Of a DNA stretch of 36,305 bases, positions 2,864-35,922 are shown one piece after another. The DNA lies in the NCBI GenBank assembly GCA_900320795.1, contig ONTQ01000020.1, positions 1 to 36,305 of the forward strand. The letters run 5' to 3'. How positions within the stretch are numbered: the first letter of the stretch is position 1; every line of letters starts with the position of its first letter. Both the position numbers and the translations under genes were made by a program. Source of the DNA: an uncultured Bacteroidales bacterium. GTDB lineage: Bacteria > Bacteroidota > Bacteroidia > Bacteroidales > UBA932. Below the pieces are notes generated by a model that saw nothing but the letters and a program-made list of their open reading frames with translations, ran no database searches and had not been told where the DNA came from.

Positions 2864-3002
2864 CCGCGGGGCATTTCGGCCCCTTTTTGCCCCTGGCAAC
2901 GTCGTTTCCCACCACCCGCGGGGCATTTCGGCCCCTTTTTGCCCCTGACACCGTCGTTTTCCACCCCCCGCGGGGCATTTCGGCCCCTTTTTGCCCCTGG
3001 AG
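2864..3002 (-). repeat. 52-bp tandem palindromic repeat array A1 (3 units)
   Basis: Three palindromic cores, GGGGCA-N14-TGCCCC, occupy 2868-2893, 2920-2945 and 2972-2997, spaced exactly 52 bp apart. Each core is flanked by CCGCGG on one side. The inter-core segment (with an AACGACG-type motif on the minus strand) is close to that of the array at 5593-5982, but the orientation is opposite. The last core ends five bases from the stop codon of the RAYT gene. No coding function is likely. The array separates the RAYT 3' end from the ABC-F promoter and could act as a terminator or as a RAYT target. Confidence 0.9.
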
Positions 3003-3929
3003 TCAGCGGGTTTTTGAAGTGAGAGGGTACAGTTGATTTACGATGCCTATATCAATACCGGCCAAACGTGCAATCTGCCCGTTGGATGCGGAATACTCTT
3101 TACGAAGAATCATGGCAAACTCCTTTTTTTGAGGCTCAGTCATCTCCGACGGAGAATGGCTTGCGAACCGTTTTCTACAGATGTCGCGGGATATTTTGAA
3201 CAACTCATCATCGGAGAGGCTTAAACTCTCTCCATAACTTTTAGCCACCTCTATTTGCGCTTCAACATTTCGAATCACCCAGAACAGAAACTGTCGGGCA
3301 TTGCCAAAGAGGTTTTCGACAAGCCGATAATTTACAAAACTTTGCGGAAGAATCAGGCCATTTTCCACCATAAGCCCTTCCGGGATATCCCCATCACTGG
3401 TTTTGCAAATCTTTCGGCGCTCTCTATAACTGAGTTCCCGGCCGGGTTTCCCGGACACGGCGTTCAGAAAGGGATTGAAATACAGGAACCCGCTACACCA
3501 ACGATAGGTGAAAAGATTGATGTCGTCCCGAACAACGAACGGATTCCGGATTACATAGGCCACTTCATCACGGAACTGTTTCAGGGACGTGATGCGCGTG
3601 GTTCCGCATGTCATCCCGGCAATCTGCTCCTTTTTTCCTCTTCCGTTCAAATAGCGGATGATACGCCTGTGAAGGTTATCATAGAAAACGCGGGATGCCT
3701 CCTCATCGGCCTGAAGAATCAAATGAAAATGATTGCTCATCAGGGCATAGGCCAGAATATCAATGCTCTGTTCCCTGGATTCCAGTGCTATCAGGTTCAG
3801 AAGCGTCTTCCGGTCCTGCTCATCTTCGACCAGCAAGGTGGTTTCCAGCGGTTTTGTATAGAGGTGAACGAAGGGACCGTTTTTTACGAAGAGTTGTTCC
3901 CATTTCCAGTTTGAAGCGTAGTTTTCCAT
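3003..3929 (-). CDS. REP-associated tyrosine transposase (RAYT, IS200/Y1 family)
   Basis: This 308-residue protein carries the marks of the Y1 HUH transposases. The metal-binding HUH motif is His67-Phe-His69 in YALMSNHFHLIL, and the likely nucleophile is Tyr125 in DEVAYVIRNP. RAYTs of this group nick and join single-stranded REP palindromes. They are normally single-copy domesticated genes flanked by REPs rather than by IS ends. That fits here: a three-unit palindrome array abuts the stop codon and an eight-unit array lies beyond mnmA. Residues after about 190 form a C-terminal extension of unknown role, ending in a predicted helical, DNA-binding-like segment (NGQIARLAGIDIG). The ATG at 3929 follows an A-rich leader. 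No IS terminal repeats are seen. The family call is firm; the link to these particular repeats is inferred. Confidence 0.88.
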   Translation of the reverse strand: MENYASNWKWEQLFVKNGPFVHLYTKPLETTLLVEDEQDRKTLLNLIALESREQSIDILAYALMSNHFHLILQADEEASRVFYDNLHRRIIRYLNGRGKKEQIAGMTCGTTRITSLKQFRDEVAYVIRNPFVVRDDINLFTYRWCSGFLYFNPFLNAVSGKPGRELSYRERRKICKTSDGDIPEGLMVENGLILPQSFVNYRLVENLFGNARQFLFWVIRNVEAQIEVAKSYGESLSLSDDELFKISRDICRKRFASHSPSEMTEPQKKEFAMILRKEYSASNGQIARLAGIDIGIVNQLYPLTSKTR

Positions 3930-3941
3930 GTTTTGTTTTTT

Positions 3942-3975
3942 TAAAACTACGCAGACATTTTTGTAACAGCAACAG
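3942..3975 (-). promoter_or_regulatory. Weak candidate promoter of the RAYT gene
   Basis: On the minus strand TAGTTTTA (3949-3942) matches seven of eight positions of TAnnTTTG. A TTG lies about 20 bp upstream. It ends 12 bases before the ATG. The imperfect -7 box suggests low expression, as expected for a transposase. Confidence 0.3.
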
Positions 3976-4081
3976 ACAAGTCCCTTCCGGCAGTAATTAT
4001 TGACGTTTTTTACGATTTTTAAGTGTTTTGCTATGCCAATCGGAAGAAAAAGAAGCAGTACGGCAAATGTTTTTTAATGGG

Positions 4082-5470
4082 TCATATCACCCCGGAACCC
4101 AGCATTTCCTCGCCGGCGTACCAGACGGCGAACTGACCGGGGGAAATGCCCCGCTGAGGGGCGTCGAAAAGGATGTAGAGGCCACTTTCCCGCTGGATAA
4201 GCGTAGCACTTTGGAGGGGCTGGCGGTAGCGGATGCGCACGCGGTAACGGCACATTTGCCCGGGCTGCAAGGCAAGGTCCGGCCTGATCCAATGGATTTC
4301 CTCCGGAGCCACCCGCAGGCAGAACCGGCTCAGCCCTTTGTGCGAATGTCCTTCGCCAACATAGATGCGGTTGGCTTCCGTATCGGTGGCTATTACAAAA
4401 ACCGGCTCCGAATGGCCGCCGATGCCCAGTCCTTTCCGCTGGCCGATGGTATAAAATTGAGCCCCCTCATGCTTTCCGACGATTTTCCCGCAGGGATTCT
4501 CCTTGAAGCGGGTCTTCTTGATGTGATGCTTCCCGCTGCGGTAAGTCTCTGTCTCAAAACGGATATCATACCGGATGGGCATTGCCAATCGGGTCAGTTC
4601 GTCATCCGTGAGGGCCGATATCTTTGCTTCCTCGAACGGGCTGATACCCAGCGGTTTTCCGTCCGAAGTGAGTATTTTCTCCTCCGGTGCATAGCGGACG
4701 GTGCGCTCCAAAATGGCATCGGCCTTCAAAAGACCCGATAGTATCTCCTGCTGCCAGTTATACAAGGCATCCGTCGTGTAATATGCATCGAAAACCTCCA
4801 CCACGTCCCCTTCCACGGAGGCAAGTTTCTGCTTGAGGAAAGTGGGAAGGTCCACCTTGCCCACAAAGCAAATGCCCTGGGAATCCTTTTTTTCGGCCGA
4901 TGGAAGATCTGCCTCCCTGGCGATGCGCCGCACCTCCGGCTTCACGATGTCTCCAATCGGAAACAGAGCCTTGGAGAGTTGTTCCTGGGTAAGTTGGCAC
5001 AGGAAATAAGTCTGGTCCTTGTTGGGGTCTGTCCCTTCCAGAATGCGGCAAGTACCGTCCGGAAGCACTTCCTTTCGGCAATAATGGCCGGTAGCCACAA
5101 AATCGGCCCCGTATTTCTGCGCCACCTGGAGGAAGGCGTCGAATTTGATTTCCCGGTTACAGAGCACGTCCGGATTGGGGGTGCGGCCTTTGGCATATTC
5201 GTCGAACATATAGTCCACCACGCGCTGACGGTACTGTTTGGAAAGATCCACGAAATAAAAAGGGATGCCGATTTTCCGGGCCACCATCTCCGCCACAAAG
5301 CGGTCTTCTTCCCACTCGCAGTCTCCGTGGAGGGTGCTGTCGGCATCATGCCAATTCTGCATGAACATGGCGAAGACGTCGTACCCCTCCTGCTTCAGAA
5401 GATAGGCGGCCACCGACGAGTCCACCCCGCCGGAAAGCCCCACGCATACTTTAATCTTGCTCTTGTCCAT
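4082..5470 (-). CDS. mnmA: tRNA-specific 2-thiouridylase MnmA with a large insertion
   Basis: MnmA installs the 2-thio group on U34 of tRNA-Lys, -Glu and -Gln in the cytoplasm, using ATP and a sulfur relay. Visible here are the PP-loop SGGVDSS (residues 13-19), the first catalytic Cys104 in NPDVLCNREIKF and the second, Cys201, in DSQGICFVG. The conserved YTIGQRKGLGIGG block starts near residue 340. The protein has 462 residues against the usual 350-380. The excess is a segment of about 100 residues (roughly 226-326) between the Cys201 region and that block, where typical MnmA has only a short loop. The frame stays open upstream through the repeat array, but MDKSKIKVC at 5470 is the natural start: homology begins there and a -7 box ends four bases before it. 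Function is secure; the insertion is unexplained. Confidence 0.95.
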   Translation of the reverse strand: MDKSKIKVCVGLSGGVDSSVAAYLLKQEGYDVFAMFMQNWHDADSTLHGDCEWEEDRFVAEMVARKIGIPFYFVDLSKQYRQRVVDYMFDEYAKGRTPNPDVLCNREIKFDAFLQVAQKYGADFVATGHYCRKEVLPDGTCRILEGTDPNKDQTYFLCQLTQEQLSKALFPIGDIVKPEVRRIAREADLPSAEKKDSQGICFVGKVDLPTFLKQKLASVEGDVVEVFDAYYTTDALYNWQQEILSGLLKADAILERTVRYAPEEKILTSDGKPLGISPFEEAKISALTDDELTRLAMPIRYDIRFETETYRSGKHHIKKTRFKENPCGKIVGKHEGAQFYTIGQRKGLGIGGHSEPVFVIATDTEANRIYVGEGHSHKGLSRFCLRVAPEEIHWIRPDLALQPGQMCRYRVRIRYRQPLQSATLIQRESGLYILFDAPQRGISPGQFAVWYAGEEMLGSGVI

Positions 5471-5474
5471 GTTG

Positions 5475-5482
5475 CAAAGGTA
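5475..5482 (-). promoter_or_regulatory. -7 box of mnmA, four bases from the ATG
   Basis: TACCTTTG on the minus strand is a perfect TAnnTTTG. Only four bases separate it from the mnmA ATG at 5470, so transcription should begin within a base or two of the start codon. Confidence 0.55.
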
Positions 5483-5592
5483 CTCATTTTCCGGGAAATC
5501 TCCACACCTGCCCATCTCCCCTGGGGCCAAAAGAGGGGCCGAAATGCCGCTGTGCTTCAACACTTGAAGCACACTTTTGGTGTGTATTGCCA

Positions 5593-5984
5593 GGGGCAAA
5601 AAGGGCCCAATTTGCCCCGCGGGTGATGGGGAACGACGGTGCCAGGGGCAAAAAGGGGCCAAAATGCCCCGCGGGTGGTGGGAAACGGCGGCGCCGGGGG
5701 CAAAAAGAGGCCAATTTGCCCCGCGGGTGGTGAGAAACAACGGCACCAGGGGCAAAAAGGCCCCGAAATGCCCCGCGGGTGATGGGGAACGACGGTGCCA
5801 GGGGCAAAAAGGCCCCGAAATGCCCCGCGGGTGATGGGGAACGACGGTGCCAGGGGCAAAAAGAGGCCAATTTGCCCCGCGGGTGGTGGGAAACGACGGC
5901 ACCAGGGGCAAAAAGGACCCGAAATGCCCCGCTAGAGGTGCAAAACAACGGCACCAGGGGCAAAAAGGCCCCAAAATGCCCCGC
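5593..5984 (+). repeat. 52-bp tandem palindromic repeat array A2 (8 units)
   Basis: Eight cores GGGGCA-N14-TGCCCC start at 5593, 5645, 5697, 5749, 5801, 5853, 5905 and 5957. All seven intervals are exactly 52 bp. Each core is followed by GCGGG or a close variant, then by a G-rich linker containing AACGACGG and ending in GTGCCA or GCACCA. The arms are invariant, while the 14 central bases vary (GGGCCC, GGGGCC or GGCCCC with A-rich flanks). The array fills the gap between the SGNH hydrolase stop (6001) and the mnmA promoter. Because 52 is not a multiple of three and the units contain few stop codons, long open frames cross it on both strands. I regard these as non-coding. Confidence 0.93.
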
Positions 5985-6000
5985 GGGTCAAAAGAGAAGA

Positions 6001-6663
6001 CTACCGGAGGGTCTCCACGAGGAGGCGCTCCATGAGGGCGTAGCCAGCGGCGTTAGGATGGACGGTGTCACCGGAGTATTCGGCACGAATTTTTCCGTCG
6101 GGACCGGCCAGGACGGCAGCATAGTCGATGAAGGTGATGCCATGGCGCTCGCAATAGGCCTTCAGGCGGGCGTTAAGGGACTGCACTTTCTGGAAGGTAT
6201 CGGTGATTTCCGGCCGCCAGCCAAGTTTATAGGAAGGAAGGAGGGCGCAGATAACCGGGCGAACGCCGTTGTGCCTGGCCAAGTCAATCATACTGAGGAT
6301 ATTGGCATAGGTAAGCTCCTCTACGTACGGATCTCCCATATTCTGGGCGATGTCATTGATACCCCCCAGAAGAACGAAGGTAGAAGCATGGATATCAAGG
6401 ACATCCTGCCGGAAACGGAGCAGCATCTGGGCCGTTTCTTCTCCGCTGATACCCCGGCCGATAAAACCGGTTTCGGCAAAGAAATCCGGGCGCTGGGACG
6501 CCCAGCCGTCGGTAATGGAATCTCCGTACAGTACAACACGGGGGCCGTAGCAAGCAGCCTTAAGCGCCTCATTGGCAGCGGCATAACGGTTCAGGTGGGC
6601 AACATTCTGAGCCTGGGCGCCCACGCCAAGCAGCACGGCAAGAAGGAGGAAGATACGTTTCAT
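6001..6663 (-). CDS. Secreted SGNH/GDSL-family hydrolase
   Basis: The protein (220 residues) starts with a signal peptide, MKRIFLLLAVLLGVGAQAQ, so it is exported. The four SGNH blocks are present: GDSITDG with the catalytic Ser (near residue 49), the Gly of GRGISGE, Asn in GGINDI, and Asp and His in SGDTVHPN near the C-terminus. Enzymes of this type remove acyl or acetyl groups from carbohydrates or lipids. The substrate here is unknown. Its promoter (TATATTTG, 6687-6680) sits back to back with that of lplA. The stop codon is 18 bases from the last core of repeat array A2. The start at ATG 6663 is supported by the signal peptide; an in-frame TTG lies three codons upstream. Confidence 0.88.
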   Translation of the reverse strand: MKRIFLLLAVLLGVGAQAQNVAHLNRYAAANEALKAACYGPRVVLYGDSITDGWASQRPDFFAETGFIGRGISGEETAQMLLRFRQDVLDIHASTFVLLGGINDIAQNMGDPYVEELTYANILSMIDLARHNGVRPVICALLPSYKLGWRPEITDTFQKVQSLNARLKAYCERHGITFIDYAAVLAGPDGKIRAEYSGDTVHPNAAGYALMERLLVETLR

Positions 6664-6679
6664 AACAGTCAAATTTCTT

Positions 6680-6687
6680 CAAATATA
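6680..6687 (-). promoter_or_regulatory. -7 box of the SGNH hydrolase gene
   Basis: TATATTTG on the minus strand, 16 bases before the ATG at 6663. Its upstream region overlaps the divergent lplA promoter. Confidence 0.5.
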
Positions 6688-6699
6688 ACTATTTTTTCG

Positions 6700-6707
6700 T
6701 ACTTTTG
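6700..6707 (+). promoter_or_regulatory. -7 box of lplA, four bases from the ATG
   Basis: TACTTTTG is a perfect TAnnTTTG ending four bases before the ATG at 6712, which predicts a leaderless mRNA. It is only 12 bp from the divergent -7 box of the SGNH gene, so the two promoters probably compete for polymerase. Confidence 0.5.
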
Positions 6708-6711
6708 GAAT

Positions 6712-7647: not shown

Positions 7648-7671
7648 ATCCCCGTTTTTTTGCTATCTTTG
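7638..7671 (+). promoter_or_regulatory. Promoter of the membrane protein / S9 peptidase pair
   Basis: The -7 box TATCTTTG (7664-7671) has TTTG 22 bp upstream, at 7638-7641 inside the lplA coding end. The leader to the ATG at 7693 would be about 17 bases. Confidence 0.5.
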
Positions 7672-7692
7672 TAAGACTATAATTTAACCGAA

Positions 7693-8115: not shown

Positions 8116-8118
8116 AAC

Positions 8119-10074: not shown

Positions 10075-10078
10075 TCCC

Positions 10079-10125
10079 GTCATTCTGAGCGAAGCCCTGT
10101 CATTCTGAGCGAAGCGAAGAATCTT
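10079..10125 (+). repeat. Two tandem copies of the GTCATTCTGAGCGAAG repeat
   Basis: GTCATTCTGAGCGAAG occurs at 10079-10094 and again at 10099-10114. The second copy continues into a longer GCGAAGAATCTT tail. The full element has matching ends (ATTCT/AGAAT), so it can form an imperfect hairpin. From memory this sequence is a widespread intergenic repeat in Bacteroidota and other phyla. It lies just after the S9 peptidase stop and could act as its 3' element. It is unrelated to the 52-bp arrays. Confidence 0.75.
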
Positions 10126-10134
10126 CTAAAAAAA

Positions 10135-10166
10135 TTTGGCAAATCCATTTTTTTAGCCTATCTTTG
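10135..10166 (+). promoter_or_regulatory. Promoter of tRNA-Val
   Basis: TTTG at 10135-10138, a 20-bp spacer and TATCTTTG at 10159-10166 make a textbook Bacteroidota promoter. The tRNA begins 11 bases after the -7 box. Confidence 0.65.
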
Positions 10167-10176
10167 TAATCCTTTT

Positions 10177-10251: not shown

Positions 10252-10267
10252 CAAAAGAAAAAGAAAC

Positions 10268-11423: not shown

Positions 11424-11470
11424 AAAGGCCGATAATCCCCGCCAGACCCTTTCCCCGTCAACAACCTTGT

Positions 11471-11742
11471 TGCCCCGCGAAGGTCTAAAAGACTGCACTC
11501 CAGGGGCAAAAACGCCCCAATTTGCCCCGCGGCGGCTCCAAAGACTGCACTCCAGGGGCAAAATCGGCCCAAATTGCCCCGCAGTGGCCACGAAGACAGC
11601 ACCCCAGGGGCAAAAACGCCCCAATTTGCCCCGCGGTGGCCACAAAGACTGCACCCCAGGGGCAAAAACGCCCCAATTTGCCCCGCGGTGGCCACAAACA
11701 CTGCACCCCAGAGGCAAAATCGGCCCAAATTACCCCGCGGTG
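11471..11742 (+). repeat. 52-bp tandem palindromic repeat array A3 (5 units plus a decayed one)
   Basis: Cores GGGGCA-N14-TGCCCC start at 11503, 11555, 11607, 11659 and 11711, every interval 52 bp. The last has GAGGCA and TACCCC, one change in each arm. Upstream, TGCCCCGCG at 11471-11479 is the right half of a decayed sixth unit, exactly in 52-bp register. The linker (GGTGGCCACAAAGACTGCAC type) is clearly different from that of A1 and A2, although the core and the period are the same. The array lies between the phosphotransferase stop and the GH38 promoter. Confidence 0.92.
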
Positions 11743-11775
11743 GGGAAGGGGCCCGTGGTTTAAAGGAAAATTGTG

Positions 11776-11783
11776 TATCTTTG
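11776..11783 (+). promoter_or_regulatory. -7 box of the GH38 gene
   Basis: TATCTTTG (TAnnTTTG) lies 22 bases before the ATG at 11806 and about 40 bases after the last core of array A3. Confidence 0.55.
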
Positions 11784-11805
11784 GGTACACTAAACATCGG
11801 CAACC

Positions 11806-14574
11806 ATGAAAAGAACTCTGATAACCGCCTGCTTGCTGACCATAACGGTCCTGGGATATGCTCAGGACATTCTTTCCACCGGCGTTTCACTTCCTCTGCA
11901 GTACCGAAAATCGGACGGAAAACTGACCGCACTCTCTTATGTCAAGTTTTCCGGCCCGCTGAGAAAAGGAAGTACCCTGTACTTGGACGGCACGCTGATT
12001 CCCTGGGAAGCCACTTCGCAGACGGACAGCATCGGCCTTTGGCTTCCCCTTGTGGGCCAAAGCAATCTTTTGGAAATCAGAGGGAAAAAGGGTGTTGTGT
12101 CCTCTTATCGGATAACGGCGCCCATCAGCGATGACTGGGGATATTTCGCGAACGGTGAAATCAACCTGATCCAGTCTTCCCACCAGGACATCGCCTGGAT
12201 GGATGTGCCCGACTATTGCCGGGAAGAACGCATCAACGACATCATCATTCCCGCGCTGGACCTGATGAAGGAAGATCCGGACCTCACCTTCGAGATGGAA
12301 CAGACTCTCAATCTCATGGAATTTCTGGAAGCCCATCCCGAGCGCAAGGACGAAGTGATCCAGCGATACCGGGAGCGCCGCTTCTTCTGGGGCACAACCT
12401 TCAACCAGCCCTACGAGGGCCTCTCTTCCGGCGAGCAGTTGGTCCGTCAACTCTACTTCGGCCGAAAATGGATCAAGGACAACCTGCCCGGCTGCGACGA
12501 CCGCACCGCCTTCAATGTAGATGTGCCCGGAAGGGTGCTCCAAATGCCTCAGATTCTGGCCAAAAGCGGCGTGCGGAACCTTTTCATTTCCCGTTTCGGA
12601 GAAGGCTACTATGACTGGGAAAGCCCCGACGGCTCCAGCGTACTCACCTTCTCGCCGGGCAATTACGGCTGGGCCACCCTGGAATGGAAGTTTTTTGACG
12701 GCGACGTCCTCACGGCCTTTGACAAACTGCACAAGCGACTTGCCCTGTGGAACGAATACTATGAGCAGCACAACCTTCCGCCCTACTACTGCGTCCTCAT
12801 GAGTTGCGACGCCACCAAACCGCACACCTACACGGCCATTTTCAACGAGTGGAACCGCATTGCGGAACTTTCGGACACTCCTCTTCCCCGGGTACGTTAT
12901 GCCAATGCCGATACGTTCCTGGAAAGAATGGATACACCGGAAGCAAAAAGGGAACGGATAAAGGGAGAACGCCCCAACCTGTGGCTGTATATCCACGGAC
13001 CGGCCCACTACGAGCAGACCGTCGATAAACGCCGCGCTGCCGTCCTCCTTCCGGCCGCCGAACAACTCGCCTCCCTCAGCAGCATCCTGCTGGGGGCCGA
13101 TTATCCGGCCGACAAACTCGCCCGCGGCTGGATGGCGTCCATCTATCCCGATCACGGCCTGGGCGGGAAAAACGGACACATCACCGACCGCATTTTCGGC
13201 GATTCCCTGGCCGTAGGAAGAAGAATGGGAGAAGAAGTGATGGAGCAGCAGATGATGCTCCTCTCCGATGCCGTCAAAGGAAAGAAAGGGGAAATCATCG
13301 TTTACAACGACCTCCCCGAAACCCGCAGCGGTCTTGTGAGCCTTCCCGGCATCCGTCCTTTCATCGCCACCGTTCCCGGCTTCGGCTATGCAGCCTACAA
13401 TCCCAAAGCCCTCCCTGCCCAGAATGCCAGGCAGGTTGTCTGCGGCCCCAATTACTGTTCCAACGCCTTCTTTGACATCAGTTTCGGCCCCGGAGGAATC
13501 ACCCGTCTGTGGGACAAACGGCTGGGAATGAATATCGTAGAGAACGAGAAATACGCCCTGGGAGACATTTACAACGTGCCTTACCTTGGCAACGGCGCCG
13601 GAGAATTCACGGAAATCAAAGAGACCTCTCCTTATGACGGGAAGTCGCTCGGAGCCTATCAACCATCGGAGTGGAAACTGACGGAAAACACCCCTTTGTA
13701 TTCCGTTTTCGAAAGCCATACCCAGACTCCTTTCACGCTGGTAAAACAGAGCATCAGCGTCCATCACTGGACCGGAAAAATTGACTTTGACGTCACGCTG
13801 GAAAACTTCACCGGAGAGCATAACCAACAGTACCGCATCCTGTTCCCGCTCAAGATGAAACTGCGAGACTCAGACATCCGCTACCATACGCCGGCGGCCA
13901 TTTCCCGCGTAGGGAAAGACGAACTGGACCGTAAGCCCATGGGCTGGGCCGCCTGGGGCAGTTACGTGCATCACCCATCCGATAGCCATCCCCGTGAAAT
14001 CCAGCAGTTTATCACCGCCTCCGGCAAGGAATTCGGGGCCACTCTCTCCAGTTGCGTGGCCGTAGCCGACTGGATTGATCCCGCCCGTGAAATTGCCGAT
14101 TACACCGTCCTTCAGGGGATTCTCCTGTCGGCCCACAAAAGTTGCCACGGAGAGGGCAACTGGTACTCCCAGGAAGGGACTCACCACTACCATTTCTCCC
14201 TCGCCACCCATACGCCCGGATGGCAAAGCGGCTACCACGGGGCCATCGCCGAGAATCACCCGTTCTACACAGCGGTAAAAACGGCCAACGGAGGCACGCT
14301 TCCGCGTTCGCAGAGTTTAGTCACTCTCTCCGACCCGTATGTGAGCGTTCTGACCCTCAAACGGGCCGATGACGTCTCCTCCGCCCTCATTCTGCGTCTG
14401 GTGGAAATGGAAGGCCGGGACAAAAAGGTGGCGGTAACACTGCCCTTCGCCCTCAGGAAGGTAGTGAAATGCAGCATGATAGAGGAAGAGCAGGAAACGC
14501 TCCCGCTTTCAGGACAAACCCTTGAGTTCACCCTGGGGCACCACGCTATTGAAACGTATAAACTTTATTATTAA
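11806..14574 (+). CDS. Glycoside hydrolase family 38 alpha-mannosidase
   Basis: The 922-residue protein has a signal peptide (MKRTLITACLLTITVLGYAQ), an N-terminal beta domain to about residue 115, the GH38 catalytic barrel and GH38 C-terminal beta domains. The metal ligands His126 and Asp128 are in SSHQDIAWMD. The likely nucleophile is Asp239 in FNVDVPGR. GH38 enzymes release alpha-mannose, for example from N-glycans, with a zinc-assisted retaining mechanism. Its stop codon is immediately adjacent to the stop of the convergent GH20 hexosaminidase gene (no gap). The two activities could act on the same host glycans, which is inference from neighbourhood. No SusC/SusD pair is present. Confidence 0.9.
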   Translation: MKRTLITACLLTITVLGYAQDILSTGVSLPLQYRKSDGKLTALSYVKFSGPLRKGSTLYLDGTLIPWEATSQTDSIGLWLPLVGQSNLLEIRGKKGVVSSYRITAPISDDWGYFANGEINLIQSSHQDIAWMDVPDYCREERINDIIIPALDLMKEDPDLTFEMEQTLNLMEFLEAHPERKDEVIQRYRERRFFWGTTFNQPYEGLSSGEQLVRQLYFGRKWIKDNLPGCDDRTAFNVDVPGRVLQMPQILAKSGVRNLFISRFGEGYYDWESPDGSSVLTFSPGNYGWATLEWKFFDGDVLTAFDKLHKRLALWNEYYEQHNLPPYYCVLMSCDATKPHTYTAIFNEWNRIAELSDTPLPRVRYANADTFLERMDTPEAKRERIKGERPNLWLYIHGPAHYEQTVDKRRAAVLLPAAEQLASLSSILLGADYPADKLARGWMASIYPDHGLGGKNGHITDRIFGDSLAVGRRMGEEVMEQQMMLLSDAVKGKKGEIIVYNDLPETRSGLVSLPGIRPFIATVPGFGYAAYNPKALPAQNARQVVCGPNYCSNAFFDISFGPGGITRLWDKRLGMNIVENEKYALGDIYNVPYLGNGAGEFTEIKETSPYDGKSLGAYQPSEWKLTENTPLYSVFESHTQTPFTLVKQSISVHHWTGKIDFDVTLENFTGEHNQQYRILFPLKMKLRDSDIRYHTPAAISRVGKDELDRKPMGWAAWGSYVHHPSDSHPREIQQFITASGKEFGATLSSCVAVADWIDPAREIADYTVLQGILLSAHKSCHGEGNWYSQEGTHHYHFSLATHTPGWQSGYHGAIAENHPFYTAVKTANGGTLPRSQSLVTLSDPYVSVLTLKRADDVSSALILRLVEMEGRDKKVAVTLPFALRKVVKCSMIEEEQETLPLSGQTLEFTLGHHAIETYKLYY

Positions 14575-16476
14575 CTATTTCACGACAATTTCGTCCACAA
14601 AAAGCCACTCCTTGGAACGAGGGGCGAAAAAGCGGATATAGCGGGCGCGCCCGCTAAGCGGAACGCCAAAGAGAATGTAAGAAATGACGGGCTCTTTCAT
14701 TTCATTGAAGGCCTCGCCTGCCTTCGTGAAGGCTTTGCCATCGGCCGATACCCAGACTTCCACCTTTTCCGGAAGATAGATGCCGGGGCCGGGGACGCAC
14801 ATGAAGGTGGCGCCCACATAATGGATGTCCTGCAGGGATTCCAGGTCGATGGTGACGTCCACATCGCTGAGGAAGCCCTGCCAGCGGTCATCCTTGTAGG
14901 CCCAGCCGCCGCCCAGGCCGTCCGTGAGCGAGGCAGCGCCGGCCGCCGCATATTTGCCATGCCAAGGCTTGGCATAGGTTACCGGCTTTCCAAGAGCCAG
15001 ATGGTCATATCCATGCTTATAGGCCTCCCGCTCTCCCCTTTCCTTCCTGAGGTCGAAGACTTTATAGCCCTTGGAGGCCAGGTTTTCATTCCAGGCCGAT
15101 ACACGCTCGCGGAAATCGGCATGCGCAACCGGAGACCAGGCCCTCTCGGCCGTGGCGGCCACGCGAGGGTACATCATATATTCCGTATGCTCCGGCCTAG
15201 GGATGTATTCGTGCCACAAATTGGCCTGAAGGCCCAGGAGCAGCGGATGCAGTTCTTCGGGGATATCGGCCAGCGGATCATAACTGTACACCGTATCCAG
15301 AGAGAGGAAACCTCCCTGGCCCAGCGGTTCATAGAGCGGCGCATCCTGCGCATTGTTGATATAGCAGTAATCCCCGGGGGTCATGATGGCCTCGTGGCCT
15401 TCCTTCATGGCCTGGATGCCGCCTTCCGTGCCCCGCCAACTCATGACCGTGGCGTTGGGAGAAAGGCCGCCCTCCAGAATCTCGTCCCAGCCCAGGAGTT
15501 TTCGGCCGTGGGCGTTGAGGTAACGCTCAATTCGCTTGACCAGATAACTCTGCAACTCTTCCACGGAGGAAAGCCCTTCCGCCTTCATCCGGGCCTGGCA
15601 GTCCGGACAGGTGTGCCAGTCTCGCTTGGAGGCCTCATCCCCGCCAATGTGGATGTACTCCGAGGGGAAAAGGTCCATCACTTCGTCCAGGACACCCTCC
15701 AGGAAGGTGAAAGTAGCCTCTTTCCCGGGGCAGAGTTCGGCCGATCCTTCCTTGCAGCCCAGTTCCGGATAGGCAAAAACCACCTCCCGGCTATGGCCCG
15801 GCATCTCAATTTCCGGGACCACCGTAATGCCCAGCCGCTCTCCCGCTAAAAGGATTTCGCGGACATCGGCCTTGGTGAGATAGCCGCCGGAAGCCTCCGG
15901 GGCCCCTTCGTGGGAATACCGGCAGCCTCCGTTTTGCCATTCCTGCCAACTGGAGCCAATGCGCCAGGCGGCCTCCGTGGTGAGTTTGGGATAACGGTCT
16001 ATCCGGAGCCGCCAGCCGGCATCATCGGTCAGGTGCAAATGCAACTGGTTAATCTTGACACTGGCAAGCGCTTCCATCTGCTTGAGAATGAAGTCCTTGT
16101 CACGGAAATGGCGGGAAATGTCCAGCATGAATCCCCGGTACGCGAAACGGGGATAATCAAACACGGTGCAGCAGCGGTCCACCTGAGAGAGCGTTTGCAG
16201 GGCCCTGAGGCAGCCCGTCTCCGTATTGGCCTCTATCCGGTAGCCCTTGGGCGTCACTGTAAGAAGATAAGCCTCTTCCCGGGCAAAAGCCGGCAGGAAA
16301 GCCGTCTTGCGGGCAAAGGCCGATTTTCCAATCTTCCGGGAAAGTTCCCGGGTAAGATTAGGCGTCCCCTCTGTTTCAGACACTTGTACCGGAGCGGGAA
16401 TAACGGGAAAAACCTGCGCCCGTACCCCCAGCGAAAGCGCCAAGGCACAAAAAATAGCGACAACCGTGTGTTTCAT
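14575..16476 (-). CDS. Glycoside hydrolase family 20 beta-N-acetylhexosaminidase
   Basis: The 633-residue protein has a signal peptide (MKHTVVAIFCALALSLGVRAQ), the GH20b N-terminal domain (about 22-130) and the GH20 barrel. The catalytic pair is Asp280-Glu281 in YIHIGGDEASKRDW. Other barrel markers are HLHLTDDAGWRL and EIEMPGHS. The last 130 residues form a discoidin (F5/8 type C)-like domain. It removes terminal GlcNAc or GalNAc by substrate-assisted catalysis. The start is fixed by the signal peptide. One base separates it from the clpX stop, so it is probably translated from the tig-clpP-clpX transcript, an odd partner for a secreted enzyme. Confidence 0.92.
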   Translation of the reverse strand: MKHTVVAIFCALALSLGVRAQVFPVIPAPVQVSETEGTPNLTRELSRKIGKSAFARKTAFLPAFAREEAYLLTVTPKGYRIEANTETGCLRALQTLSQVDRCCTVFDYPRFAYRGFMLDISRHFRDKDFILKQMEALASVKINQLHLHLTDDAGWRLRIDRYPKLTTEAAWRIGSSWQEWQNGGCRYSHEGAPEASGGYLTKADVREILLAGERLGITVVPEIEMPGHSREVVFAYPELGCKEGSAELCPGKEATFTFLEGVLDEVMDLFPSEYIHIGGDEASKRDWHTCPDCQARMKAEGLSSVEELQSYLVKRIERYLNAHGRKLLGWDEILEGGLSPNATVMSWRGTEGGIQAMKEGHEAIMTPGDYCYINNAQDAPLYEPLGQGGFLSLDTVYSYDPLADIPEELHPLLLGLQANLWHEYIPRPEHTEYMMYPRVAATAERAWSPVAHADFRERVSAWNENLASKGYKVFDLRKERGEREAYKHGYDHLALGKPVTYAKPWHGKYAAAGAASLTDGLGGGWAYKDDRWQGFLSDVDVTIDLESLQDIHYVGATFMCVPGPGIYLPEKVEVWVSADGKAFTKAGEAFNEMKEPVISYILFGVPLSGRARYIRFFAPRSKEWLFVDEIVVK

Positions 16477-30979: not shown

Positions 30980-30980
30980 A

Positions 30981-31011
30981 TTGCAAAAATACAGATTATT
31001 CTTTAAATTTG
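30981..31011 (+). promoter_or_regulatory. Promoter of the phosphoglucomutase gene
   Basis: TTG (30981-30983), a 20-bp spacer and TAAATTTG (31004-31011) make a good promoter. Its -33 element lies between the -7 box and the ATG of the divergent methyltransferase gene, so the two polymerase sites occupy the same DNA. Confidence 0.6.
30984..30991 (-). promoter_or_regulatory. -7 box of the methyltransferase gene, four bases from the ATG
   Basis: On the minus strand TATTTTTG ends four bases before the ATG at 30979, which predicts a leaderless message. It lies wholly within the spacer of the divergent phosphoglucomutase promoter. Confidence 0.5.
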
Positions 31012-31058
31012 TATGCTTTAGAGAAACCTTAGAAATAACACTAAAACACTGCATTCAT

Positions 31059-32726
31059 ATGAAAAATTACAAGGACGTAGCACAAAGCTGGCTCATCGGG
31101 AATTTTGACGAGGAAACCAAAGCCGAAGTCAAACACCTCATGGAAACAGATCCCGTGGCCCTGGAAGACGCATTTTACCGCAACCTCGAGTTCGGCACCG
31201 GCGGCCTCCGCGGCATCATGGGCGTCGGCACCAACCGCATGAACAAATACACGGTGGGTATGGCCACCCAGGGTCTTGCCAACTACATCAAGGCCCATGT
31301 GAAAGGCGCCGCCAGTGTCTGCATTTCGCACGACAGCCGCAACAACTCCCGCCTTTTCGCGGAAATATCGGCCGATGTCCTGAGCAACAACGGCATCAAG
31401 GTATTTCTGTTCGACGGCCTGCGCCCCACGCCGGAACTCAGTTACAGCATCCGCCTCAAGAAGGCCACCGCAGGCATCATGGTCACGGCCAGCCACAACC
31501 CCAAGGAATACAACGGCTATAAGGTATTCTGGAGCGACGGCGGACAAATCACCGCACCCGTGGACAAAGACATCGTCGCAGAGGTCGCCAAGATTGAAGA
31601 CCCGGCTGACGTCCGTTTCCAGCCCGTCCCCGGTGCAGACAAAGCCCCCATCGAAATCATGGGTGCCGAAGTAGATGAATGCTACCTCCGCGACATCACC
31701 TCACTCGCCCTCACCCCCGAGGCCGTGAAAAAGCATGCCGACATGAAAATTGTCTATACCCCGCTGCACGGCTGCGGCGTGCGCCTGATGCCCGCCGCCC
31801 TGAACCGCATCGGCTTCAAGAATATCATCCACGTGCCCGAACAGGACATCTCCGACGGCAATTTCCCCACCGTGGTCTCCCCCAACCCGGAAGAGCCCGC
31901 CGCCATGGCCATGGCCCTCAAGAAGGCCGATGAAACCGGTGCGGACCTCGTCCTCGCCACCGACCCCGACGCCGACCGCCTGGGCATCGCCGTACGCGAC
32001 AACGAAGGCAAGATGGTGCAACTCACCGGCAACCAGACCTGGAGTTTCCTCACCTACTATGTGCTCACCCGCTGGCAGGAACTGGGCAAACTGCAGGACG
32101 GAAAAGGCTATGTTGTAAAGACCATCGTCACCTCCGAACTCATCGCCGCCATCTGCGAGAGTTTCGGCGTCAAGTGCTACAACGTGCTCACCGGCTTCAA
32201 GTACATTGCCGAGGTGGTCAAGCGCAACGAAGGCAAAGGAGTGTTCATCTGCGGCGGTGAAGAAAGCTACGGCTTCAACCTGGGAGAATTCGTCCGTGAC
32301 AAGTGCGCCCAGGTAGCCGGCATCATGGTGGCCGAATGCGCCGCCTGGGCCGCCGAGAAGGGACTCACGCTTTATCAACTCCTCCAGGAAGTGTACAAGA
32401 AATACGGCCTCTATGTAGAGAAAATGGTATATATCGTGCGTAAGGGCAAAACCGGCGCCGAAGAAATCCAGAAAATCATGGCCGATTACCGCGCCTGCCC
32501 GCCGAAGGAAATCGCCGGCAGCCCCCTCGCCAAGGTCATCGACTACAACAAGCCCGAAGAGACCGGTCTTCCCAAGAGCAATGTACTGCAGTTCTTCAAC
32601 CAGGCCGGAGACGTAGTTTCCGTGCGCCCGTCCGGAACCGAGCCCAAGATCAAGTTCTATTTCGGTGCCAAGGGCAGTGATGCTCCCGAGAAGATTGAGA
32701 AACTCAAAGCCCAGTTCATCCAGTAA
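31059..32726 (+). CDS. Phosphoglucomutase/phosphomannomutase (PGM2 type)
   Basis: This 555-residue alpha-D-phosphohexomutase interconverts hexose 1- and 6-phosphates in the cytoplasm. The phosphoserine is Ser145 in VTASHNPKEYNG. The metal loop is DPDADR (Asp302, 304, 306). The sugar-binding loop is CGGEESYGF and the phosphate-binding loop near the C-terminus is RPSGTEPKIKFYF. The N-terminal NLEFGTGGLRGIMG is typical of the PGM2/PgcA subgroup. Several in-frame non-ATG starts lie upstream, but ATG 31059 gives the family-like start MKNYKDVAQSWL. The RidA-like gene begins one base after its stop. Confidence 0.93.
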   Translation: MKNYKDVAQSWLIGNFDEETKAEVKHLMETDPVALEDAFYRNLEFGTGGLRGIMGVGTNRMNKYTVGMATQGLANYIKAHVKGAASVCISHDSRNNSRLFAEISADVLSNNGIKVFLFDGLRPTPELSYSIRLKKATAGIMVTASHNPKEYNGYKVFWSDGGQITAPVDKDIVAEVAKIEDPADVRFQPVPGADKAPIEIMGAEVDECYLRDITSLALTPEAVKKHADMKIVYTPLHGCGVRLMPAALNRIGFKNIIHVPEQDISDGNFPTVVSPNPEEPAAMAMALKKADETGADLVLATDPDADRLGIAVRDNEGKMVQLTGNQTWSFLTYYVLTRWQELGKLQDGKGYVVKTIVTSELIAAICESFGVKCYNVLTGFKYIAEVVKRNEGKGVFICGGEESYGFNLGEFVRDKCAQVAGIMVAECAAWAAEKGLTLYQLLQEVYKKYGLYVEKMVYIVRKGKTGAEEIQKIMADYRACPPKEIAGSPLAKVIDYNKPEETGLPKSNVLQFFNQAGDVVSVRPSGTEPKIKFYFGAKGSDAPEKIEKLKAQFIQ

Positions 32727-32727
32727 A

Positions 32728-33732
32728 TTGAAATCATATACGATTCTTCGCCCCGTCCCCGGAGGCTCCTTCGACCAGGCACTGGAGTCCCTGCTGAATA
32801 AGCTGCAGACTTTTTTCCGGACGGAAGCCTCCGAGGACAGGCATCCTGTTTTCATCCGGTTTTTCCTCAGCGATGCCCAAAACCAGGCATCGGCACTCAA
32901 AAAGGCATTTGAGGCGTTTCCCCGGCCTTGCCCGGCGCTCTCCATTGTCGAGCAGCCGCCCCTGGATGGCAGCCGCATTACCGCGCTGGCCATAACGGAC
33001 TCCTCTCCGCAGGACATTCTCTTCCACAGCCTCCGCCTTACCGAAGAAGAAGCCCGGGGGCTGGATTCCTATCGGCAGTCCAGGCTGTTGTTCCAAAAGT
33101 ACCTGGATATAATCCGCCCCTTGGGACTGACGCTGAAAACCCACTGCGTGCGTACCTGGATCTATGTCCGGGACATCGACACCAACTACGCCGGGCTGGT
33201 GAAAGCCCGGAACGATGTGTTCGAAGAGGAAGGGCTGAGCCACCTTACCCATTATATCGCATCCACAGGAATCGGAGGCGCCACAGAAAGCCGGTCGGAG
33301 ATAACTGCCATCGACTTCCTTACTTACCCGCACATCCTGGAAAGCGAAAAGACCTATCTGAAAGCCCTCTCCCACCTCAGTCCCACCCATGACTATGGAG
33401 TGGCTTTCGAAAGAGGGGTGCGGTTGTCTGACGGCCACATTTTCATCAGCGGAACGGCCAGCATTGACCAACGGGGAGCGGTTTTGTACGAAGGAGATGT
33501 ATTGGCCCAGGCCAGGCGCCTGCTGGACAATATCTCCGCGCTCCTTGCCGAAGGCGGCTCCTCGCTGGAAAAAGTACGGTATTTCGTGGCTTACCTGAGG
33601 GACATCTCAGATTACCCGGTAGTGGATGCTTATCTGCAGCAGCGCTTCCCTGAGGTTCCACGCGTGCTGCTGGAAGCCCGCGTCTGCCGGCCGGCCTGGC
33701 TCATCGAAATGGAATGCGAAGCCCTCTTGTAA
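32728..33732 (+). CDS. Two-domain RidA/chorismatase-like protein
   Basis: The protein (334 residues) ends in a RidA (YjgF/UK114)-like domain: GHIFISGTASI, the helix with LEKVRYFVAYLRDISDYPVVDAYL, and VPRVLLEARVCRPAWLIEMEC. The N-terminal half is a second, divergent domain, and the overall layout recalls FkbO/Hyg5-type chorismatases. The RidA family removes reactive enamines or imines, while chorismatases cleave chorismate; which applies here I cannot tell. The most natural start is a TTG at 32728, one base after the phosphoglucomutase stop, giving MKSYTILRPVPGG. Earlier in-frame starts would overlap the mutase. A terminator follows at 33745. Confidence 0.75.
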   Translation: MKSYTILRPVPGGSFDQALESLLNKLQTFFRTEASEDRHPVFIRFFLSDAQNQASALKKAFEAFPRPCPALSIVEQPPLDGSRITALAITDSSPQDILFHSLRLTEEEARGLDSYRQSRLLFQKYLDIIRPLGLTLKTHCVRTWIYVRDIDTNYAGLVKARNDVFEEEGLSHLTHYIASTGIGGATESRSEITAIDFLTYPHILESEKTYLKALSHLSPTHDYGVAFERGVRLSDGHIFISGTASIDQRGAVLYEGDVLAQARRLLDNISALLAEGGSSLEKVRYFVAYLRDISDYPVVDAYLQQRFPEVPRVLLEARVCRPAWLIEMECEALL

Positions 33733-33744
33733 AGAAGAAAATAG

Positions 33745-33784
33745 CGGGATTTCTTGCAACTTTGCCGGAAATCCCGTATTTTTG
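33745..33784 (+). terminator. Terminator of the phosphoglucomutase operon
   Basis: CGGGATTTC (33745-33753) pairs perfectly with GAAATCCCG (33768-33776), followed directly by TATTTTTG. The T-run is also the -7 box of the tRNA-Ala promoter. Confidence 0.8.
33754..33784 (+). promoter_or_regulatory. Promoter of tRNA-Ala, overlapping a terminator
   Basis: TTG (33754-33756) lies in the terminator loop. After a 20-bp spacer, TATTTTTG (33777-33784) starts at the base after the stem. The tRNA begins 15 bases downstream of the -7 box. Confidence 0.6.
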
Positions 33785-33798
33785 CATTCCTTTCAAGC

Positions 33799-33872
33799 GG
33801 GGTATTAGCTCAGTTGGCTAGAGCGATAGGTTCGCAATCTATAGGTCAGGGGTTCGACTCCCCTATACTCCA
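33799..33872 (+). tRNA. tRNA-Ala (anticodon CGC)
   Basis: A full cloverleaf is visible. The acceptor stem is GGGGTAT/ATACTCC, including the G3-U70 wobble that marks alanine tRNAs. The D stem is GCTC/GAGC and the anticodon stem ATAGG/TCTAT has one wobble. The loop TTCGCAA gives anticodon CGC, and the T stem is AGGGG/CCCCT. The discriminator is A. CCA is not encoded. Confidence 0.9.
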
Positions 33873-33876
33873 CAAC

Positions 33877-33909
33877 ATCCCTCTTAGAGTAGTCTGAGGG
33901 GGATTTTTT
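33877..33909 (+). terminator. Terminator after tRNA-Ala
   Basis: CCCTC pairs with GAGGG, and AGA with TCT around a GTAG loop. GGATTTTTT follows. It begins within about ten bases of the tRNA 3' end. Confidence 0.7.
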
Positions 33910-33929
33910 GTGTCTTATATCCCAAATAG

Positions 33930-34115
33930 TATCCCATTTTCGCAGTATTCGTAGTCGCAGCGGCAATTGTCCTCGTTATCTACTTCCTTTCGACATCCTC
34001 CGGCCACACGGCCGACAACAACTGCTCCCGAGAGAACACCTTTCCCTTTTCATCGGAAATGTGTAAACAACATCCTGATCAGCAAATTGTTCCTTATGAA
34101 TCCTCAAGCCAATAA
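33930..34115 (+). other. Gene-poor stretch with an ATG-less open frame (possible remnant)
   Basis: From the tRNA-Ala terminator to the thioesterase start there are about 280 bases without a convincing gene. One frame of 61 codons is open and encodes a plausible membrane helix (IFAVFVVAAAIVLVIYFL) followed by a polar tail, but it has no ATG, GTG or TTG ahead of the helix. It may be the remains of a small membrane protein or chance. I see no integrase, no repeat of the tRNA end and no array here. Confidence 0.25.
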
Positions 34116-34190
34116 TAATTTATACCGGGGCCCCTGCGAGACTGTTGCCAAAAAGTAAAATTATTTGTATTTTCACGGGGAAAACACAAT

Positions 34191-34577
34191 ATGTTAGCAA
34201 TCGGTATCAAGTATCATTTGGAATCCTTTACTACGAAGGAGAATTGCGCGGACAGCCTTGGAACGGGCAATGTCCCCGTTTTTGCCACCATCATGATGAT
34301 TGGCCTCATGGAGAAAACCTGCGTGGAGAGCGTTCTCCCCTATCTGGAGCCCGGGCAGGACACGGTGGGAACACACGTAAACGTCTCCCATGCAAAAGCA
34401 ACACCCATCGGGATGAAGCTGTGCTGTGACAGCGAACTCATCGAGATCGACCGCCGGAGGCTCGTCTTCCATGTCGCGGCCTATGATGAACGGGGGCTCA
34501 TCGGCGAAGGCACCCACGAGCGCTTCATCATTGACAAGAAACGATTCGTGGAGAAAACCTACTCACAAACCCAATAG
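34191..34577 (+). CDS. FlK-like hot-dog thioesterase
   Basis: The 128-residue protein resembles the fluoroacetyl-CoA thioesterase (FlK) group of hot-dog-fold enzymes. Visible family blocks are PVFATIMMIGLMEKTC, with the acidic residue in the LME turn, GQDTVGTHVNVSHAKATPIG, with the conserved His, and the final strands RRRLVFHVAAYDE. FlK homologues hydrolyse small acyl-CoA esters. The real substrate in gut-type bacteria is not known and fluoroacetate should not be assumed. The next gene starts two bases after its stop, so the two share a transcript. No clear -7 box precedes it. Confidence 0.8.
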   Translation: MLAIGIKYHLESFTTKENCADSLGTGNVPVFATIMMIGLMEKTCVESVLPYLEPGQDTVGTHVNVSHAKATPIGMKLCCDSELIEIDRRRLVFHVAAYDERGLIGEGTHERFIIDKKRFVEKTYSQTQ

Positions 34578-34579
34578 AC

Positions 34580-35230
34580 ATGGCAACAAGACCTTTCGGC
34601 ACTTGCTTTTTCGAGCAGTATGCGCAAATTTTGCTCACCGCCATCCTCGGCCATGAGTTCTCTCCCCTTGTGAACCGGGACCGTCCCGACCTGCAAACCC
34701 CGGACGGGTGCACCTTCGGCATCGAAGTTACGCGTGCCATGGAAGAGAGCAAGCGGGCAGAAGAAGAGCTCTTGAAGGATATTTCCGGCATCACTCCGCC
34801 TCCGGGAGATGAAGAGTTCGGCCAGATTCTCGAATACGGGTATGCCTATGGCCTCAAGAAAGGGAAATATATCGGCATCAAGGAACTGTCCTACTGGTCC
34901 ATGGCCCTTCCCATGAGGCGCATCCTGGAGAGCAAGGTATCCAAAGTGGGTAACGGTTTCTACGGCCACTTCGAGAAAATGGGACTCTTTGTCTTCTCCC
35001 GGGAAAACATGAAAGAGGCGGAAGCCGTGAAGGCCATGAACTATACCCTCCAGCTCCAGAAATATCTGGATGTCCGTTATAACCAGCTCTATCTGGCCGA
35101 TGTAAACGATCTCTTTGTCTGCAATCTGGATGATGGTCTCAAAGACAGTTCCCGTCTGATCCGATATCCCATCACCCAGGAACAGCGCCGGGAATTCTAC
35201 CAGACGGCCGTTCAGGATGCCCATTATTGA
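34580..35230 (+). CDS. Hypothetical protein, possible nuclease-like fold
   Basis: I do not recognise this 216-residue protein with confidence. There is no signal peptide or membrane segment. The N-terminal part contains RPDLQTPDGCTFGIEVTRA (from about residue 35), where a PD is followed some ten residues later by E-V-T. This recalls the PD-(D/E)xK nuclease core, but the expected Lys is a Thr, so the resemblance is weak. The middle is charged and helical. The C-terminal half has YLDVRYNQLYLADVNDLFV, which looks like a core beta-strand. It is tightly coupled to the thioesterase gene. Nothing nearby suggests a restriction or defence locus. Confidence 0.6.
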   Translation: MATRPFGTCFFEQYAQILLTAILGHEFSPLVNRDRPDLQTPDGCTFGIEVTRAMEESKRAEEELLKDISGITPPPGDEEFGQILEYGYAYGLKKGKYIGIKELSYWSMALPMRRILESKVSKVGNGFYGHFEKMGLFVFSRENMKEAEAVKAMNYTLQLQKYLDVRYNQLYLADVNDLFVCNLDDGLKDSSRLIRYPITQEQRREFYQTAVQDAHY

Positions 35231-35256
35231 ATGTTACTCGATGCCACTAGCCTTTT

Positions 35257-35418
35257 TTATTCGATGGACAGCCGAAACTGCCCGCTCTCCCGACTCAAAT
35301 TGATGCTCAGGTTTCCATCCGGAGAAGGGACGGTAACGACAGACGGGGTGCAGGAGGATACTCCCACCAAGAGGAGTGCCAGGAGGGAGAATCCGATTAC
35401 AGGAAGTTTGGAATTCAT
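35257..35418 (-). CDS. Small predicted lipoprotein, possibly a truncated GH97 start
   Basis: A 53-residue frame starts with a signal peptide and lipobox (LVGVSSC), so the product would be lipidated at Cys23. The mature 30 residues read PSPDGNLSINL and then RESGQFRLSIE, which resembles the first strands of the N-terminal domain of GH97 glycosidases, where SPDG followed by hydrophobic strands is common. The frame then stops, and no continuing homology is seen before the next gene. A TATATTTG -7 box lies 23 bases upstream. It is either a real small lipoprotein or a stump of a GH97 gene. It overlaps no other gene. An end at repeat array B is just upstream. Confidence 0.45.
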   Translation of the reverse strand: MNSKLPVIGFSLLALLLVGVSSCTPSVVTVPSPDGNLSINLSRESGQFRLSIE

Positions 35419-35441
35419 TGAATAGTGTATTTGCGATACTA

Positions 35442-35449
35442 CAAATATA
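35442..35449 (-). promoter_or_regulatory. -7 box of the small lipoprotein gene
   Basis: TATATTTG on the minus strand, 23 bases before the ATG at 35418. The first hairpin of repeat array B is about 27 bp further upstream, where activators or the -33 element would sit. Confidence 0.45.
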
Positions 35450-35468
35450 CTACTCTTTTTTCAATTCT

Positions 35469-35835
35469 TTGCGTCAAGGTCCGGCCGATGGACCTTCAGG
35501 CAAGTTTTCCAGCCAAATCTTTGCGCCAAGGTCCAAGCGATGGACCTTCAAGCAACTTTTTCAGCCAATTCTTTGCGCCAAGGTCCAGCCGATGGACCTT
35601 CAGGCAACTTTTTCGGCCCCATTCCTTGCGCCAAGGTCCAGCCAATGGACCTTCCGGCAACTTTTCGGCCCCATTCTTTGCGCCAAGGTCCGGCCGATGG
35701 ACCTTCAAGCAAGTTTTCGGCCCCATTCTTTGCGTCAAGGTCCGGCCGATGGACCTTCAAGCAAGTTTTCGGCCCCATTCTTTGCGTCAAGGTCCAGCCG
35801 ATGGACCTTCAAGCAAGTTTTCGGCCCATTCGAGC
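35469..35835 (+). repeat. 52-bp tandem hairpin repeat array B (7 units)
   Basis: Seven hairpins AAGGTCC-N7-GGACCTT start at 35476, 35528, 35580, 35633, 35685, 35737 and 35789. The intervals are 52, 52, 53, 52, 52 and 52 bp. The loop is usually GGCCGAT or AGCCGAT. Between hairpins is a conserved segment with CAAGCAAGTTTTCGGCCCC and TTTGCGCCA or TTTGCGTCA. The sequence is unrelated to the GGGGCA core family, yet it has the same period and leads directly into two units of that family. Open frames across it have no codon-like signal and I treat it as non-coding. Confidence 0.92.
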
Positions 35836-35843
35836 AAGATCCG

Positions 35844-35922
35844 GGGGCAAATTAAGCCTGTTTTGCCCCGCGGAGGGGGGAAAATCATAGTGCCAGGGGC
35901 AAAACAGGCCGTTTTTGCCCCG
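35844..35922 (+). repeat. 52-bp palindromic repeat array A4 (2 units)
   Basis: Two cores GGGGCA-N14-TGCCCC lie at 35844-35869 and 35896-35921, again 52 bp apart. Their stems extend to eight and nine pairs (GGGGCAAA/TTTGCCCC and GGGGCAAAA/TTTTGCCCC). The linker is G-rich and ends in GTGCCA as in array A2. The second core ends one base before the stop codon of the ABC ATPase gene on the minus strand, where it would form a hairpin right after that stop. Confidence 0.9.

Follow-up and report, generated by a model that had tools for sequence, protein, structure and literature searches.

Tandem palindrome arrays with a unit length of 50-53 bp beside RAYT-like genes in a genus of uncultured Bacteroidales

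The stretch of DNA analysed here (hereafter "the window") comprises the 36,305 nucleotides of contig ONTQ01000020.1 from an uncultured Bacteroidales bacterium (GCA_900320795.1), which is contig C229 of a 2.8-Mb assembly of 266 contigs that is 85% complete. It contains intergenic arrays of the palindrome GGGGCA-N14-TGCCCC, one of which lies directly beside a gene for a protein resembling the REP-associated tyrosine transposases (RAYTs; REP, repetitive extragenic palindrome). Further RAYT-like genes of the genus are accompanied by arrays of other repeats, many of them with a period of 50-53 bp. Arrays of this REP/RAYT-like type probably change by whole units, the length of the unit being held by a constraint that is tied to certain RAYT clades. 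The frequent recurrence of a 50-53-bp spacing in families unrelated in sequence suggests some form of control over the spacing as such.

Palindrome arrays of the window and their counterparts

Four arrays of 3, 8, 4 and 2 perfect GGGGCA units were detected in the window, 17 in all, together with a unit with two mismatches (11711) that closes array 3 (Table 1). These figures agree with the initial annotation, which had counted 18 copies (3, 8, 5 and 2 per array). The decayed half unit at 11471 was likewise recovered and keeps the register. All 14 intervals within these arrays measure exactly 52 bp. The stem arms show nearly no variation, the units run head-to-tail within each array, and arrays 1 and 2 consist of one common unit in opposite orientations. 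Allowing up to two mismatches, the window contains 19 matches, including a stray one with two mismatches at 4127 outside the arrays. This number exceeds that of each of 100 dinucleotide shuffles (mean 3.89, maximum 10, 0/100 reaching 19). Furthermore, Tandem Repeats Finder detected an additional array with a consensus period of 52 bp, absent from the initial annotation, whose hairpin is unrelated to GGGGCA. It is composed of seven palindromes of an AAGGTCC type, spaced by 52 bp with one interval of 53 bp, and 12 bp separate its end from array 4.

Table 1. Repeat arrays and RAYT-like gene of the window
Feature	Position	Strand	Description
Array 1	2852..3000	-	three GGGGCA hairpin units (2868, 2920, 2972), period 52 bp; directly 3' of the RAYT-like gene, in the same orientation
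RAYT-like HUH/Y1 protein gene	3003..3929	-	308 aa with H67-x-H69 and Y125; the GGGGCA arrays are its presumed cognate repeats
Array 2	5589..5988	+	eight GGGGCA units, period 52 bp, 156-bp higher-order repeat
Array 3	11470..11743	+	period 52 bp; besides four perfect units, a half unit (11471) and a decayed one (11711)
AAGGTCC-N7-GGACCTT array	35464..35831	-	seven hairpin units, period 52 bp (one interval of 53 bp); unit shared with a RAYT-adjacent array on contig C158
Array 4	35844..35921	+	two GGGGCA units, 52 bp apart

In the whole genome 68 perfect GGGGCA palindromes were found, 58 of which could be placed on 10 contigs, one of them (on C177) probably by chance. Among 62 distinct units from the window and eight further stretches, 39 of the 49 intervals within arrays are 52 bp long, eight (in two arrays) are 51 bp and two are 53 bp. 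The 52-bp spacing without exception that had been claimed initially is therefore valid for the GGGGCA arrays of the window and not for the genome, where 51 and 53 bp occur. The wider claim that the 52-bp peak and the copies extend beyond one locus holds, and a duplication confined to a single locus was rejected on the grounds of 68 copies on at least 10 contigs. Of the AAGGTCC family, six contigs carry 36 perfect copies; their spacing is 52 bp apart from one interval of 51 bp (C158) and the one of 53 bp in the window. In the relatives the GGGGCA palindrome gives one to four matches in 5 of 60 genomes and no match in the other 55.

Being intergenic, 26 bp long (within the range of 20-40 bp) and present in many copies, the GGGGCA palindrome resembles a canonical REP. 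It does not form the REP doublets (REPINs) or bacterial interspersed mosaic elements (BIMEs), which consist of two inverted units, since its units are arranged head-to-tail. Regularly spaced intergenic palindromes might also point to a CRISPR-like array, to transcription terminators or to a structured RNA. We consider these options very improbable. Arrays that share one orientation occur both 5' and 3' of a single gene. A CRISPR was rejected because the linkers between the units recur inside an array and unique spacers are missing (cas genes were not searched for), and a known structured RNA because the Rfam models identified two tRNAs only in the window.

The uncultured Bacteroidia assembly RUG13929 ("RUG" presumably standing for rumen genomes) possesses an orthologous RAYT gene (84% identical) in a region of conserved synteny with a nucleotide identity of 80-87%. 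Its counterparts of arrays 1 and 2 comprise two and three units compared to three and eight in the window, so that the copy numbers differ by integers at a spacing of 52 bp in both genomes, and the units differ in sequence from those of the window. The site of array 4 is occupied instead by a pair of GTCCC-N7-GGGAC hairpins with a spacing of 51 bp. They resemble a GGTCC-N7-GGGAC pair of the same spacing beside another RAYT of RUG13929. At the site of array 3, the segment corresponding to positions 11430-16333 of the window, holding the array and a GH38-type gene, is absent from RUG13929 and 36 bp are found in its place, so that one boundary of the indel falls about 40 bp away from array 3. Two perfect copies of the GGGGCA 26-mer were detected in RUG13929.

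The RAYT-like protein and its relatives

Array 1 stops 2 bp short of the RAYT-like gene, the product of which contains the motifs MSNHFHLIL and, further downstream, AYVIRNPF. None of the 91 aligned relatives deviates at H67, H69, Y125 or N129, and the residues Q285 and R288 are likewise invariant. At an E value of 0.01 the REP_Tyr_transpos model NF047646 matches 60 and the Pfam family Y1_Tnp (PF01797) 63 of these 91 proteins. A structure model based on an eight-row alignment reached a mean predicted local distance difference test score (pLDDT) of 71, with 74-91 in ten-residue blocks over residues 21-130. According to a fold comparison its best match in the PDB is 4er8, the complex of a RAYT with a REP hairpin (E 1.9e-4, the sole match below 0.001), followed by numerous IS200/IS605 transposases (2vic, 2f4f, 2xqc and others); sequence profiles reach the same structures weakly (E 0.02-0.95). 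The C-terminal region was modelled as helical with a confidence of 82-88 per block, and matches to helix-turn-helix (HTH) models are scattered over the relatives (one or two of 91 each). The protein is a remote and divergent relative of the REP-associated tyrosine transposases of the HUH/Y1 type.

The IS200/IS605 transposases have the Y1 core fold in common with the window protein, which differs by its 308 residues and by a YxxxN instead of a YxxxQ motif. An IS200 element was rejected on account of this motif, including the invariant N129, and of the homologues in the same genome, which are at most 40% identical and comprise no near-identical copies. Nine such homologues were identified (23-40% identical). 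Three of the nine loci bear arrays of other repeats with periods of 51, 52 and 52 bp. The locus on contig C158 has the AAGGTCC unit, and the RAYT belonging to the AAGGTCC array of the window is likely to be located there, on a contig other than that of the array.

Array period and RAYT lineage across the genus

RAYT-like proteins are encoded in 52 of 61 genomes of the genus, including that of the window. In a wider search of 247 genomes sampled from the order, three had a match at 1e-20; two belong to the genus, and one of these two is the genome of the window itself. Our main count of arrays covers 1.49 Mb of DNA in 108 loci centred on 109 RAYTs, namely most of the best-scoring matches listed, the three RAYTs of RUG13929 and one member of the genus from the order-wide sample. 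The sampled RAYTs are those that scored best with a model derived from the genome of the window, and in these draft genomes tandem arrays may have been collapsed, or truncated where a contig ends. A period of 50-53 bp was found for 35 of the 58 arrays located within 600 bp of a RAYT (24 of them 52 bp), compared to none of 30 arrays in the approximately tenfold larger amount of DNA farther away. Periods such as 46, 66, 70 and 81 bp also occur next to RAYTs. An earlier count in 100 stretches had assigned 29 of 46 near and 7 of 37 far arrays to periods of 49-54 bp; since the seven far arrays were all GGGGCA arrays from the genome of the window in stretches fetched for holding that pattern, the window, L079-L086, L177 and L215-L221 were left out of the main count. 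The autocorrelation of 177 RAYT flanks yielded values of 0.085, 0.164 and 0.034 at lags of 51, 52 and 53 bp, compared to 0.009, 0.000 and 0.000 in 862 control windows, with further peaks at 104 bp and, separately, at 22 bp. The proposal of the initial annotation that a RAYT may underlie the arrays is well supported by the RAYT-like gene adjoining array 1 and by further cases of this association throughout the genus.

Units were compared from 35 arrays (29 near arrays of the earlier count, two arrays of the window and one each of L229, L230, L231 and L200). They fall into 21 clusters at 60% identity, shuffled units never exceeding 52%. Merging by eye those clusters with a common arm core (CATGTGG, GGTCC or GGGGC) leaves about 15; because several share such cores, the clusters are not all independent. 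The view that the exact spacing goes beyond freely diverging slippage products, as put forward initially, gains support from the many sequence families with a period of 50-53 bp.

In a quick tree of 91 proteins, in which the entries for the window and L056 were labelled manually, the clade of the window protein has arrays of 50-52 bp in 7 of 7 members, a second clade arrays of 50-53 bp in 14 of 45 and a third clade in 0 of 31. The lag analysis, from which the partial RAYTs L094, L155 and L157 were omitted, revealed a lag of 50-53 bp in the first two clades for 32 of 50 RAYTs, in the third for 1 of 31 and in none of the eight others. A lag of 22 bp was found for 8 of 31 RAYTs of the third clade and, in the first two clades together, for 2 of 50. 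In members of the third clade CAGGTGG motifs are arranged in inverted clusters with a spacing of 22 bp. In L107, L120 and L156 motifs of the CAGGTGG/CCACCTG type flank a central inverted repeat 3' of the RAYT (spacing 22 bp, 42 bp in L156), which represents a second regular spacing of different geometry. Sister RAYTs have hairpins in common (L090 and L102; L112, L115, L117 and L133). A long-branch-type RAYT of RUG13929 (L237) is flanked by arrays of an 82-bp unit at 768-1064 (3.6 copies) and 2406-3073 (8.1 copies). Based on the clades, the lags and these 82-bp arrays, the period follows the RAYT lineage and does not hold for all RAYTs.

These results also bear on the possibility that the arrays are ordinary tandem repeats which arose by slippage or unequal crossing-over and inherited their period from one ancestral RAYT-adjacent array, with no ruler and a RAYT that is inactive now. 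The higher-order repeats of 104, 156 and 207 bp, which indicate growth by whole multiples of the unit, would be consistent with such multi-unit duplication, and so would the agreement of period and RAYT clade and the arm cores CATGTGG and GGTCC common to several clusters. However, the families differ from each other by replaced unit sequences (the cluster threshold was 60% identity, and shuffled units stayed at or below 52%), and the RAYTs of the array-bearing clades have diverged down to about 20% identity with that of the window while their periods remain within 50-53 bp. In the large clade of 45 RAYTs the neighbouring lag bins of 46-49 and 54-57 bp are near empty, holding two and one. Due to the replacement of the unit sequence a pure inheritance of the ancestral length would seem less likely.

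Proposed origin of the unit length and relation to known systems

The arrays presumably represent REP-like elements of a REP/RAYT ("REPtron"-like) system in which each RAYT-like HUH/Y1 protein would have its own repeat family, usually a hairpin. The RAYT probably recognises the folded single-stranded unit, cuts it and rejoins it. Whole repeats would thereby be gained, lost and homogenised, resulting in head-to-tail arrays at the gene and, in the genome of the window, also in dispersed arrays. In two RAYT clades the unit sequence appears to have been replaced and its length kept at 50-53 bp, which would imply a length constraint travelling with the RAYT lineage. By inference, we ascribe cutting and amplification of the units to the RAYT, and the constraint would likewise originate from the protein, either by its reach across neighbouring units or by phased binding to duplex DNA. 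TnpA_REP of Escherichia coli processes its cognate single-stranded REPs in vitro (PMC8266576); the RAYTs of the genus are assumed to act similarly and the arrays to turn over in whole units.

In 15 of 36 units an inverted repeat surpassed shuffled sequence at P 0.025; its span averages 28 bp (standard deviation 4.7), compared to standard deviations of 0.7 for the period and 4.7 for the linker, the narrow period being partly a matter of choice as the set was preselected at 50-53 bp. For this reason the weight rests on the counts at RAYT loci and the lags of the clades. Three of 38 units fold worse than their own shuffles. Arrays flanking one RAYT on both sides have the same direction in eight of eight cases, with one pair being only 58% alike.

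Several observations weigh against our interpretation. No convincing inverted repeat was found in 11 of 36 units (P above 0.4), and that of the GGGGCA unit of the window only reaches P 0.07 against shuffling. Of the 109 RAYTs, 23 have a 50-53-bp array, 14 only other arrays and 72 none within 600 bp. The window protein scores below the curated cut-offs of both families (24 bits compared to 80 for NF047646 and 17.1 compared to 23 for PF01797), and the GTAG/GTGG foot of canonical REPs was not found at the GGGGCA hairpins, the feet of which are mostly CCA and GCGG. In addition, G036:C1 carries two identical GGGGCA doublets (311-386 and 3416-3491; L177 and L221) with 50 bp within a pair and 3.1 kb between the pairs, and no RAYT was detected in the 16 kb fetched around them.

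A period of 52 bp corresponds to five helical turns at 10.4 bp per turn, a distance which according to the initial annotation could suit cooperative binding by a protein on one side of the DNA. A RAYT lineage might have a built-in ruler, the protein making or maintaining units of 50-53 bp (five turns) whatever the repeat, possibly in the form of a phased nucleoprotein array, and a related clade of the genus a different spacing of 22 bp; we put this forward tentatively. A ruler measuring the single strand between hairpins would lead to constant linkers; a constant total length is in better agreement with duplex phasing or a fixed copy unit. Alternatively, the RAYT, through its C-terminal part, which may be HTH-like, or another protein could bind the palindromes as double-stranded DNA, and the five-turn spacing would be selected to place them on one face for regulation or nucleoid organisation. 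Such a binding platform would fit the modal period, the constancy of the unit length despite the variable span of the 15 best hairpins (in arrays chosen at 50-53 bp), and the C-terminal region with its confidently modelled helices and the invariant Q285 and R288. However, few relatives match HTH models (e.g. MarR_2 in 2 of 91), the 22-bp spacing of the other clade misses two turns by one base, and the periods of 46, 66, 70 and 81 bp at other RAYTs are not whole turns, which makes the platform a rather doubtful option. For the latter reason a rule of whole helical turns for every RAYT-linked period was rejected, and the helical reading is treated as a working hypothesis.

Regularly spaced tandem arrays of REPs next to RAYTs have been described before. 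In Pseudomonas fluorescens SBW25 palindromic REP classes are each found beside their own RAYT, some as evenly spaced tandem arrays, and the spacing depends on the class (doublets of 71 and 110 bp; GI-GIII arrays of 112 and 72 bp) (PMC3116915). The REPs and REPINs of SBW25 are mostly inverted doublets, whereas the genus investigated here has direct tandem units with many families at 50-53 bp. The window protein resembles E. coli TnpA_REP and its REPtron in the HUH/Y1 fold and in the hairpin family adjoining the gene (PMC8266576; 4er8). In contrast, it has about double the length and an additional C-terminal domain, and its repeats lack the GTAG foot and form head-to-tail arrays instead of BIMEs. 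The NHxH and YxxxN motifs are shared with class 2 of the TnpAY1 superfamily (Quentin et al. 2018, PMC6006769). Within this class, subclass 2.6 (Bacteroidetes) is described as flanked by atypical structures, and subclass 2.1 (TIRYT) as having an HTH-like C-terminal domain and being without REPs (PMC6006769). The terms "tandem", "array" and "spacing" are absent from the main text of this survey (PMC6006769), and in the openly licensed PMC literature we recognised no description of one period common to several REP families.

A wider question concerns the formation of REP arrays and the role of RAYTs in their hosts. Dozens of RAYT-repeat pairs are available in this one genus, their sequences replaced but their period retained. 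They make the idea of a DNA ruler set by a protein directly testable and provide a set of protein-array pairs of known spacing.

Two further features of the window were noted. The ABC-transporter reading frame at 35923-36222, at the contig end, lacks about 176 bp in its middle compared to the RUG13929 contigs C52 and C25, representing either a real deletion or an assembly error. Positions 10079-10125 comprise two copies of GTCATTCTGAGCGAAG followed by CGAAGAATCTT, a sequence which we take to be a widespread bacterial repeat. Since many of the 52 matches of the window in RUG13929 fall there, this region is a dispersed repeat of another kind.

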